Assembly: GCF_014647375.1 (NCBI RefSeq)
Contig: NZ_BMPB01000017.1
Coordinates: 62,001-126,000 of the forward strand
Origin: Parabacteroides faecis
Lineage (GTDB): Bacteria; Bacteroidota; Bacteroidia; Bacteroidales; Tannerellaceae
Length of the DNA: 64,000 nucleotides
Reading direction: 5' to 3'
Positions 42,704-45,821 of this stretch are shown piece by piece. Every line of letters starts with the position of its first letter. Positions within the stretch are counted from its first letter, which is position 1. A model generated the notes under the pieces. The model did not search any database. It saw only the letters and a program-made list of their open reading frames with translations, and had not been told where the DNA came from. The position numbers were made by a program, and so were the translations under genes.

Positions 42704-42752
42704 CTAAGTTCGTGTCTTTCTTTCTCTAATTGCATATATAATTTGTAAAATA

Positions 42753-42854
42753 ACTATCATACTATCATTTTCTAATATAAATAGCAGATTATTAGTTTGT
42801 TATATTATGATAGTTGTTGAAAAAAACTATCATTCAACTATCATGAACTATCAT
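42753..42854. repeat. Left ACTATCAT array
   Basis: Six perfect units: direct at 42753, 42761, 42826, 42837 and 42847, inverted (ATGATAGT) at 42807. The units at 42807 and 42826 are 11 nt apart, the same as in the right array. A near copy, ATGATAAT, is at 42857. Confidence 0.85.
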
Positions 42855-42964
42855 ACATGATAATTATATCCCGGAAGAGAAAACCGTAGTTTAAAGTGCT
42901 GTAAATAGACTGAATAAAATTAGATAAACTATTGAAAAACATTGCTTATATATAATATTTTTCT

Positions 42965-42972
42965 TATATTTG
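42965..42972 (+). promoter_or_regulatory. -7 promoter element of the HU/VirE operon
   Basis: TATATTTG; transcription would start near 42979, just before the ACCCGGGTGT array, leaving a leader of about 140 nt. Confidence 0.6.
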
Positions 42973-42993
42973 TAAGTATAAGAAGTTGCTGAC

Positions 42994-43049
42994 ACCCGGG
43001 TGTCGATACCCCTGAGACCCGGGTGTGAGCATCGTTCAGATCCGGGTGT
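42994..43049 (+). promoter_or_regulatory. Three 10-bp repeats at exact 23-bp spacing
   Basis: ACCCGGGTGT at 42994 and 43017 and ATCCGGGTGT at 43040. The first lies in a perfect 14-bp palindrome, GACACCCGGGTGTC (42991-43004). Regular two-turn spacing next to the transcription start is typical of an operator or origin iteron array. It could be bound by the HU-like protein or an unseen regulator. Confidence 0.65.
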
Positions 43050-43116
43050 AAAATGGGGTGAAATGCCCGTCCTGATGAAGTTTTCCAGTATTATTATTAA
43101 ACTAAAATACCTGTTT

Positions 43117-43506
43117 ATGGCACATTTCTATGTTGTTCGCACGAAATCGGATAAGACAGGTCCGATAGAAAAGAAGCTGTTTTATGGAGTTCCCGTTACG
43201 ACGGGGCGGGTCACTACCGAGCAGTTGGCAGAAGAGATTGCCGACCGTTGTTCATTGACGCGGGGAGATGTGCTTGCTGCCGTCTGCGAGATGAGCGACA
43301 TTATTCTTGAACGTTTGAAAGATGGTTATTCGGTCGAACTGAAAGATATGGGCGATCTGTATCTCTCGGCAGGGAGTGAAGGTTATGAGAAAGCGAAGGA
43401 TTGTACTCCCCATCGGGTAAAAGCGAAGCGGGTTTGTTTCAGGATGGGCACGCGACTACGTAAGGAAATGAAGTTTTTTAAATTTGAAAGATACCCGTTC
43501 GAATGA
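43117..43506 (+). CDS. HU-family DNA-binding protein (Bacteroidetes HU-like)
   Basis: A 129-residue protein of the Bacteroidetes HU-related type, with an N-terminal extension (MAHFYVVRTKSDKTG) before the HU fold. TTEQLAEEIADRCSLTRGDVLAAVCEMSDIILERL gives the helical part and GYSVELKDMGDLYLSAGSEG the start of the arm. The C-terminal basic region (HRVKAKRVCFRMGTRLRKEMK) should contact DNA. The ATG at 43117 is chosen; an in-frame start at 43000 would read through the regular repeats. Its stop overlaps the helicase gene start by 4 nt, so they are translated together, and it may bind the surrounding repeats. Confidence 0.82.
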   Translation: MAHFYVVRTKSDKTGPIEKKLFYGVPVTTGRVTTEQLAEEIADRCSLTRGDVLAAVCEMSDIILERLKDGYSVELKDMGDLYLSAGSEGYEKAKDCTPHRVKAKRVCFRMGTRLRKEMKFFKFERYPFE

Positions 43507-45584
43507 AAGTAAGCCAATATCGTTATAAGAAAGACCAGCTTATGTTACAGATACGTAGCCTGGAGCCTGTGGTGGAGATGTTACGCTCTGAGAATATGGG
43601 TGTACAAGTTGCTGATGTGCGTAATAGCCTGCATTTTTTCTTGCCGGGGCGTGCCAATGAATGGGTACGGAAATTACCTGTTATCGTTTGGGGTGCAACG
43701 TTCCTGAGGAAAGAGGGGAAGGTACGGATGAAAAATTATAACGGATGTGTCTTGTTGGAGATAAACGGTTTGTCGTCTCCTGAAGAGGCGGCTTCGATAC
43801 GTGAGGAAGCTGCCGCCATGCCTCAGACTTTGCTGGCTTTTATCGGACTGAGCGGTAAGTCGGTGAAGATTATCGTACCGTTTACATTGCCCGACGGTAA
43901 GCTGCCGCATAACAAGGAAAAAGCCGGAATGTTTCATGCGGCGGCCTATCAATTGGCAGTCAGACATTTTCAGCCGCAGTTGAGCAGTATGATCACCTTG
44001 AAAGAACCCTTGCTGATGCGGGGGACGCGTGTCAGTTATGATACCGGACTGTACTATAACCCTGCGGCAGTTCCTATCCGGTTGGAACAGCCGTTGCAAA
44101 TGCCGGGTGAGAGCGAACTGCGTGTTATTCAGGATATGCCGGCCGATCCGGTCGAACGTCTACTACCCGGAGTAGAACGTAATACGCAGATAGCCACGTT
44201 GTTCAGTGTCGTGCTGGTAGAGGCGGTCCGTAAGTTTGCCGGGAGTAACAGCAACGATCTGCATGCCTTGTTTACCGAGATGGCGCAAAATTGTTGCCGT
44301 CTGGGTATCCCGGAGGAGGAAGCGGTGGGATGGACTTTGCGTTATGAGGCTTTGGAGCCGCATGCGTTATTGGTACGACAGGTATTCCGTTCCGTTTATT
44401 TGTTGAAAAAGGCGATGGGAAATAAGTTGCCTTTGCCGGAATGTCTTTCGATGGTAATGCAACTGGATGAATTTATGTCGAGGCGTTATTTCTTCCGTAT
44501 GAATGAGATGAGCGGGGGAGTGGAATATCTCGATCGTTCAGTCATACAGTTTGTGTACCGTCCTTATACACTGAAAGTCCGTAACAGTATTTGTCTGGAA
44601 GCACAGAAGGAAGGATTGAATGTATGGGATAAAGATATAGACCGGTATGTGAATTCCGACCAGATCCCTCTATTCCATCCGATCGGGTCGTATCTGGCGA
44701 ATCTCCCTGCTTGGGATGGGAAACCGCATATCCGTGCGATGGCCGACAGGGTTCCTAATAGTAATCCGTCGTGGAGCGATTGTTTTTACCGTTGGTTCCT
44801 GAGTATGGTTGCCCATTGGATGCAACTGGATAAGGATCATGGGAACAGTACGACGCCGTTGTTGGTCGGTGACCAGGGGTGTGGCAAGTCGACCTATTGC
44901 CTGCATTTGTTACCTCCGCCGCTCCGTCCTTTTTATACCGACAGCATCGATTTCGGTAACAAGAAAGAGGCGGAACTGGCTTTGCATCGGTATGCATTGA
45001 TCAATATCGACGAATTCGATTCGGTAAAACCGTCACACCAGAGTTTCCTGAAGCATGTATTGCAAAAGGCTGTGGTCAATGCGCGGTTGCCTTACCAGAG
45101 TACGACGCGTAGCTTGCGGCGTTATGCCACCTTTATTGCTACCAGTAATAATTTCGATTTGTTGACCGATCCGACCGGAAGCCGTCGTTTTGTCTGTGTG
45201 GAGGTAGAAGGATTGATCGACTATATCCAGCCGGTCGATTATGAACAGCTTTATGCCGAAGCGAAAGAGATGCTGCGCCGTGGGGAGCGTTTCTGGTTTA
45301 CACATGAGGAGGAGGCGGCAATTGTTGAGAACAACCGGCGTTTCCAGCAATTACCGGCAGAAGAACAGTTATTCTTACGTTATTTCTGTATCCCGGACGA
45401 TACGGAAGGGATAAAGCCTTTACTGGCATCGGAGATATTGGATATAATTGCAGAGAAACAGCCCGGTTTTGTTGTCACAAAGAAGATGATACTCAATTTT
45501 GGTAAGCTTTTGAAGCGAAATAGCGTACCCAATAAGCGGACGACACGGGGAAATTGCTATTACGTGGAAGAACTATATTCTTGA
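43503..45584 (+). CDS. VirE/VapE-family helicase-primase-like protein (BT4734-like N-terminus, DUF3874 C-terminus)
   Basis: A 693-residue protein. Residues 1-230 resemble the BT4734/VirE N-terminal domain (a primase-like fold; LLAFIGLSGKSVKIIVPF). The VirE P-loop domain spans about 390-600: Walker A GDQGCGKST at about 456-464, Walker B LINIDEFDSV at about 499-508, then FIATSNNFDLLTDPTGSRRF as sensor and arginine-finger region. DUF3874 follows at about 620-690 (KRTTRGNCYYVEEL). Superfamily 3-like VirE proteins occur in phage, satellites and integrative elements, often as replication proteins. With HU and terminal iterons this suggests replication or maintenance of the enclosed unit. No partner primase is nearby. 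Confidence 0.85.
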   Translation: MKVSQYRYKKDQLMLQIRSLEPVVEMLRSENMGVQVADVRNSLHFFLPGRANEWVRKLPVIVWGATFLRKEGKVRMKNYNGCVLLEINGLSSPEEAASIREEAAAMPQTLLAFIGLSGKSVKIIVPFTLPDGKLPHNKEKAGMFHAAAYQLAVRHFQPQLSSMITLKEPLLMRGTRVSYDTGLYYNPAAVPIRLEQPLQMPGESELRVIQDMPADPVERLLPGVERNTQIATLFSVVLVEAVRKFAGSNSNDLHALFTEMAQNCCRLGIPEEEAVGWTLRYEALEPHALLVRQVFRSVYLLKKAMGNKLPLPECLSMVMQLDEFMSRRYFFRMNEMSGGVEYLDRSVIQFVYRPYTLKVRNSICLEAQKEGLNVWDKDIDRYVNSDQIPLFHPIGSYLANLPAWDGKPHIRAMADRVPNSNPSWSDCFYRWFLSMVAHWMQLDKDHGNSTTPLLVGDQGCGKSTYCLHLLPPPLRPFYTDSIDFGNKKEAELALHRYALINIDEFDSVKPSHQSFLKHVLQKAVVNARLPYQSTTRSLRRYATFIATSNNFDLLTDPTGSRRFVCVEVEGLIDYIQPVDYEQLYAEAKEMLRRGERFWFTHEEEAAIVENNRRFQQLPAEEQLFLRYFCIPDDTEGIKPLLASEILDIIAEKQPGFVVTKKMILNFGKLLKRNSVPNKRTTRGNCYYVEELYS

Positions 45585-45610
45585 TTGTTAGTTGTTTGTG
45601 TGGATTGTGT

Positions 45611-45704
45611 ATGATAGATGCCATGATAGTTATTTGTTTTAACTATCATGGTATTAAGTGTTTTATAATCAGTGATTTATTTGTGAATATGATAGTATGA
45701 CAGT
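45611..45704. repeat. Right ATGATAGT array
   Basis: Perfect units at 45623 (ATGATAGT), 45642 (ACTATCAT) and 45689 (ATGATAGT), and one-mismatch units at 45611 (ATGATAGA) and 45697 (ATGACAGT). The 45623/45642 pair lies in a perfect 11-bp inverted repeat, CCATGATAGTT with AACTATCATGG. The order mirrors the left array. Confidence 0.8.
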
Positions 45705-45821
45705 ATATTTTGCATATATCCAAAACTACACAGACAATAAAAGAAGAGATAATGATTTTTAAACCAAATCCGGATTTCTGTTGTTTAATGGTCATATATT
45801 AAGAATTAGACTTGCAAAAGT

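Follow-up and report, generated by a model that had tools for sequence, protein, structure and literature searches.

A two-gene unit of Parabacteroides faecis, enclosed by two arrays of an 8-bp repeat, is read here, at slightly better than an even chance, as a chromosomal Rep/origin cassette of SaPI-like type that has an HU partner and origin-like sites dispersed through the chromosome as MITE-like elements still tied to the protein. The window (the whole stretch of DNA analysed, 64,000 nucleotides) contains 11 sites of the word ACTATCAT where 2.74 are expected, a number reached in 0 of 100 shuffles, and nine of the 11 lie within 42753-45696, which bears out the claim of an earlier, sequence-only reading that repeat arrays flank the two genes. 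That reading also described the arrays as mirrored: the spacing (38 or 39 nt, and 11 nt) is indeed shared, but the mirror is imperfect, with six exact sites on the left and three exact sites plus degenerate copies on the right. The scores of the two arrays for a strict geometry (Table 1) compare with at most 15 for 39 window tiles and 60 shuffled flanks. Only two plausible genes are found between the arrays, and the neighbours are tsaB and, past a short orf, oadB. The unit contains no transposase or integrase in the orf list and the family scans, in agreement with the earlier description of a compact unit lacking a recognisable transposase, and inspection of its genes and neighbours revealed no integrase, master repressor or island gene order of PICI/SaPI. 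The spacers between outer and inverted pairs average 74.5% AT (29 such spacers, from several genomes) versus 57.5% for the whole window including its genes. The element TATATTTG on the 5′ side of the HU gene is promoter-like and may be compared with the Bacteroidetes consensus TAnnTTTG.

Table 1. Features of the two-gene unit and its borders, in window coordinates.
Feature	Position	Strand	Details
TGCATATAT, proposed border repeat, left copy	42731..42739		chance level
Left array	42753..42854	+	ACTATCAT at 42753 and 42761, 38 nt, 42807(-), 11 nt, 42826(+), plus 42837 and 42847; geometry 24/24
AT-rich spacer (38 nt), outer pair to inverted pair	42769..42806		candidate melting region, putative role
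Promoter-like element TATATTTG, 5′ of HU gene	42965..42972	+	sequence
HU-upstream module	42991..43050	+	three units, palindrome-like, recurring every 23 bp: GACACCCGGGTGTC, GAGACCCGGGTGTG, CAGATCCGGGTGTA
HU-HIG family DNA-binding protein, 129 aa	43117..43506	+	PF18291 1.5e-25; TIGR01201 1.4e-23
Primase-helicase-like protein (VirE), 693 aa	43503..45584	+	BT4734-like N-terminal, VapE-like and DUF3874 domains
DUF3874 region	45354..45566	+	candidate iteron-binding domain, by analogy with SaPI Rep and Cch2
Right array	45611..45704	-	45623(-), 11 nt, 45642(+), 39 nt, 45689(-), then one-mismatch copy at 45697; degenerate copies 45611 and 45697; geometry 23/24
TGCATATAT, proposed border repeat, right copy	45711..45719		chance level

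The pairing of an HU gene with a VirE gene was upheld by the family matches. The VirE protein consists of a BT4734-like N-terminal domain (aa 56-185), a VapE-like AAA+ domain (401-615) and DUF3874 (618-688). When a profile of 11 relatives was compared with solved structures, PriRep1 of SaPI5 (7pds) was the sole relative with a clear score (1e-18; the next, 0.17), and when a predicted model (mean pLDDT 72.3, pTM 0.47) was used for a fold search, the six PriRep1 chains led (2.1e-13 to 2.3e-12), followed by two PrimPols, from African swine fever virus and from NrS-1. By profile and by fold, then, the protein is a Rep-type AAA+ initiator related to SaPI Rep; the replication role suggested earlier is compatible with such a helicase, and the arrays are iteron-like. 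The P-loop GxxGCGKS is present in nine of 11 sequences (the exceptions being GPQGCRKS and GGQGLGKT, one each), while DE and GSRRF motifs do not vary among the 11 aligned sequences. Primase activity is doubtful because the window protein has LLEIN at the acidic motif of its N-terminal primase domain, which looks degenerate there, and priming may have been lost. For the earlier idea of locus defence, one library scan matched a PrimPol model and, less strongly, a VirE model associated with DRT. Helicases of the window type are present in 48 of the 198 Bacteroidales-level genomes searched, and to our knowledge their role is mostly unassigned. The genome of P. faecis itself (G000) encodes four more VirE-type genes (L002, L003, L004 and L005) with 31-51% identity over the matched part; their flanks carry other repeat words, and L003 is matched in two separate frames.

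A helicase of at least 68% identity is encoded by eight of 39 genomes of the genus. In seven of these the unit is located 0.9-7.7 kb downstream of tsaB, and in the remaining genome, G021, a different contig carries it; the proposed movement of the window unit is not supported by these positions. In tsaB regions that lack the unit, oadB directly adjoins tsaB in seven of the 13 fetched. The direct repeat TGCATATAT, which the sequence-only reading had proposed as the border of the unit, is not supported as a target duplication: two or more copies arise in 19 of 100 shuffles, and none borders any of seven orthologous units. Of these seven, six show the strict layout upstream (L037 fails) and four show it downstream; the P. 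gordonii unit (G009) has mostly lost its right array, and both it and the scattered copies in that genome read ACTATCAC.

The flanks of other units also carry repeats beside the helicase gene, with another word. Around a VirE with 50% identity the mirrored geometry recurs, the word there being TTTGCAA, and it is matched by one of 812 mismatched flank pairs. Exact mirrored geometry was detected at two of 29 unit loci, by a test devised after L057 had been seen, and is claimed for two word families only. A 7-mer cluster test gave p ≤0.019 at L001, L032, L036, L054, L055, L002, L057 and L044 and did not do so at the other 16 of 24 loci; the P. gordonii unit L034 failed it. Beyond the orthologs of the window unit, a geometry scan placed L054 (21), L058 (20), L040 (19) and L042 (18) above the null maximum and missed L057 because the two outer sites there are spaced at 7 bp. 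Arrays were significantly enriched on the downstream side of the helicase at six of 15 order-level and four of 21 genus-level loci, with one hit per shifted control; the window's own unit was not significant in this test, which is a weak one. No description of these arrays was found among titles and the starts of abstracts, in a literature coverage that mostly lies outside subscription journals.

Copies of the arrays recur without the genes. In what follows, an inverted pair of the ACTATCAT type is termed a T-dyad and one of the ACTATCAC type a C-dyad, according to the eighth base. The P. faecis genome has ten T-dyads, two in the unit and eight at seven other loci; ten loci were fetched when weaker DNA matches were included, among them the remnant L031, which retains a single exact site. 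In seven of the eight genomes with a close unit, gene-less copies occupy 3-15 further loci (G000, 7; G013, 5; G014, 3; G012, 6; G015, 15; G038, 3; G009, 11), and G021 has none; some of the copies carry a second array. None of 63 fetched copy stretches gave a match to HU or VirE. Repeats without the genes, which the sequence-only reading had counted against a mobile unit, are thus literally present, yet the gene-less copies resemble non-autonomous relatives of it. The 54/19 spacing of the window's left array is exact at 51 of 77 array ends, obtained by a tolerant search that itself imposed an approximate spacing and probably took in a few spurious ends among those with low scores. Immediately outside the array ends the consensus is TTTTGCAAAACA.

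Several of these copies are insertions relative to other genomes, as expected of MITEs or DNA transposons. Between hisG and hisD there are 165 bp in P. faecis versus a 3-bp gap in all six relatives searched. L025 is an insertion with respect to four aligned relatives, flanked by ATAAAA on either side. G009 has either no L024 or a shorter one, and the same is true of L030 in G038. The copy between ychF and polA is common to G000, G013, G038 and G009. Clear outcomes were confined to the copies just named, in a comparison that also took in L022, L026, L027, L028 and L029. Among 13 loci of G015 that were queried, L130, L131, L134, L136, L141 and L142 have an empty counterpart in one or more of three relatives, and the site of L143 is occupied in G012.

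The scattered copies share the palindromes of the unit as well as its arrays. At least two palindromes at a 23-bp period were found in 48 of 56 scattered loci of this family (family 1) and in none of 29 control tiles; they are missing from eight of the 56, five of these in P. gordonii. In a second family of units (L002/L055), with 48-49% identity, the arrays are of the TCTGCCA type and the palindromes, TGTACA, recur every 22 bp. The TGTACA chain is present in five of seven fetched copies of family 2 and in 0 of 56 loci of family 1, and the palindrome chain of family 1 in none of the seven; these seven were picked by eye from matches to a dyad pattern of poor specificity (22 of 39 genomes; reversed control, 11 of 39). 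At L214 and L219, copies of different families adjoin each other, a third-family TTTGCAAT array directly preceding the family 2 array. Immediately upstream of VirE in L041, at 1200-1420, there are repeats of about 22 nt (GTTTCTC...TTAG), and L041 has no HU match.

The word of the copies changes together with that of the unit. T-dyads occur in nine of the 39 genomes (reversed control, two of 39; for C-dyads, none of 39), including seven of the eight with a close helicase. The exception is P. gordonii, with no T-dyads and 12 C-dyads, one of which belongs to its own unit. Among the 31 genomes without a close helicase, T-dyads were found in G001 and G002 and C-dyads in G022; those of G002 are spaced differently and may be due to chance, and no close helicase gene was found in G001 (three T-dyads) or G022 (five C-dyads). 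The eighth base is C or T in the ratio 58:5 at the scattered loci of P. gordonii (C in 58 of 63) versus 4:198 in five other genomes pooled, one G having been dropped (a Fisher test on these counts took the sites as independent, which they are not), and it is T at all 40 sites in the fetched loci of P. goldsteinii (G013). In G038 it is mixed, with 3 T and 4 C in the unit and 14 T, 7 C and 1 G elsewhere; the last 100 residues of the G038 protein scarcely differ from those of the P. gordonii protein, which would fit a change in the protein first, with the sites following. Shared insertions differ in the same manner: the ychF-polA copy reads T in G000 and G013 and C in G009 (aligned over both flanks for G013 and G009, and for G000 without the right flank), and the pyrD copy, whose flanks also match, reads T in G000 and C in G022. 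Gene conversion from the unit is not favoured as the cause, because at both insertions the letters of the spacer are unlike those of the unit. The concerted change of the word in unit and copies points to a DNA word that is read by the cassette's own proteins, and offers a natural experiment on protein-DNA specificity at standing sites.

The scattered pieces might instead be ordinary MITEs mobilised in trans by a classical IS transposase, with the arrays as passengers from the unit, a reading considered unlikely. In one species group (G012, G014 and G015), an outer end resembling CAGGGCAACCGCACCAAAA (≤4 mismatches) is present on eight copies, four of which have it at both ends, a further copy (L221) also has both, and L141 of G015 is a clean insertion relative to two empty relatives, with terminal inverted repeats and an abutting duplication, CCATTTC, on both sides. 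Ends of this kind also delimit an element of 317 bp in G024 (L223:1501-1817) that has no arrays, and L026 of P. faecis has a single three-mismatch match beside its array. Exact ends of this type are confined to three of 39 genomes, however, and no similar end was found in the other G000 copies or in the copies of G013, G009 and G038 that were examined, where the only other outer inverted ends (L029 and L152) are slightly above the best of eight shuffles; terminal repeats with target duplication were seen neither at the window unit nor convincingly at the G000 copies. No transposase with such ends was identified in the orf list, and passenger arrays should not alter their 8-bp words together at shared insertions. 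An ordinary transposon end appears to be the simplest mover in the one species group, and this explanation can hold for movement while the SaPI-like reading holds for the sites.

Alternatively, HU and VirE may form a domesticated regulatory or nucleoid system that binds sites near genes, selection on regulation or folding keeping the sites matched. Word-by-word change at standing sites with differing spacers is how a regulon behaves, and several G000 copies adjoin core genes (hisG-hisD, ychF-polA, pyrD), but the positions vary between species, as the empty relatives at hisG-hisD and L025 demonstrate, and an AAA+ initiator-type helicase would be an unusual regulator; this alternative is judged rather improbable. 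That the arrays are merely the vertically inherited autoregulatory or origin sites of an immobile relic would suit the position downstream of tsaB and the tsaB-oadB junction of genomes lacking the unit. It is very unlikely, as it leaves the scattered copies, the palindrome pairing and the lockstep change unexplained.

According to the SaPI-like reading, the VapE-type protein, probably via its C-terminal DUF3874, would read its own 8-bp word in the arrays, load as a helicase at the AT-rich spacer and melt it, and HU-HIG would read the 23-bp palindromes beside the array and shape or regulate the complex. Gene-less pieces comprising array and palindromes would be scattered as MITE-like elements that the same proteins still recognise, and therefore their words would change together. 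We infer the binding, melting and replication, the roles of DUF3874 and HU, and the spreading or upkeep of the copies from these patterns. The reading is made somewhat less secure by the departures of L037 and of three right-hand arrays from the strict layout, and by the eight loci that have no palindromes. Matched arrays and palindromes nevertheless provide a testable DNA target for a cassette.

According to the accessible text of the published work, the iterons recognised by SaPI Rep helicases lie immediately 3′ of the helicase gene, and SaPI Rep and Cch2 recognise DNA through a C-terminal domain (PMC7581432). As far as the available descriptions go, PICI origins consist of two iteron sets flanking an AT-rich region, and SaPI/PICI initiators are specific for their cognate origins. 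The unit resembles these islands (PriRep1, 7pds) in its VapE/D5-like AAA+ helicase with an N-terminal primase-type domain, in the short repeats beside the gene and, to judge from those descriptions, in having two repeat sets around an AT-rich stretch; its layout and composition fit a two-iteron-set origin, as seen in the letters alone. In contrast to SaPI/PICI, it has no integrase, repressor or packaging genes, its arrays are on both sides, HU is a partner with palindromes, and gene-less array copies are found across the chromosome. Cch2 of SCCmec conforms to the proposal in that the helicase binds direct repeats downstream of its gene via its C-terminal domain, but it has other partner proteins, and the accessible text does not mention scattered copies (PMC7581432). 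What looks new is that arrays stand on both sides, that the HU partner comes with palindromes of its own, and that matched sites are scattered. It can tentatively be suggested, with considerable doubt, that helicase-HU cassettes constitute a new mobile or selfish network, in which origins are dispersed as non-autonomous elements, their 8-bp word being interchangeable and their 38/11 geometry fixed, several mutually blind families share a genome, and words drift in concert.

Concerted change also suggests where the autonomous partners of orphan repeat elements may be sought, for example those of the BrickBuilt MITE of Porphyromonas gingivalis. Compared by its description, BrickBuilt is like the copies in being intergenic and scattered and having 23-nt tandem repeats, but differs in its IS5-like ends, which resemble ISPg1, and up to 22.8 repeats, and the accessible part of that description does not mention a helicase unit (PMC4596501). 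BrickBuilt_14 (84 nt, at PGN_0871/PGN_0872 of Porphyromonas gingivalis) is described there as adjoining a gene for a PF00216 DNA-binding protein (PMC4596501), which may be compared with the palindromes beside HU.
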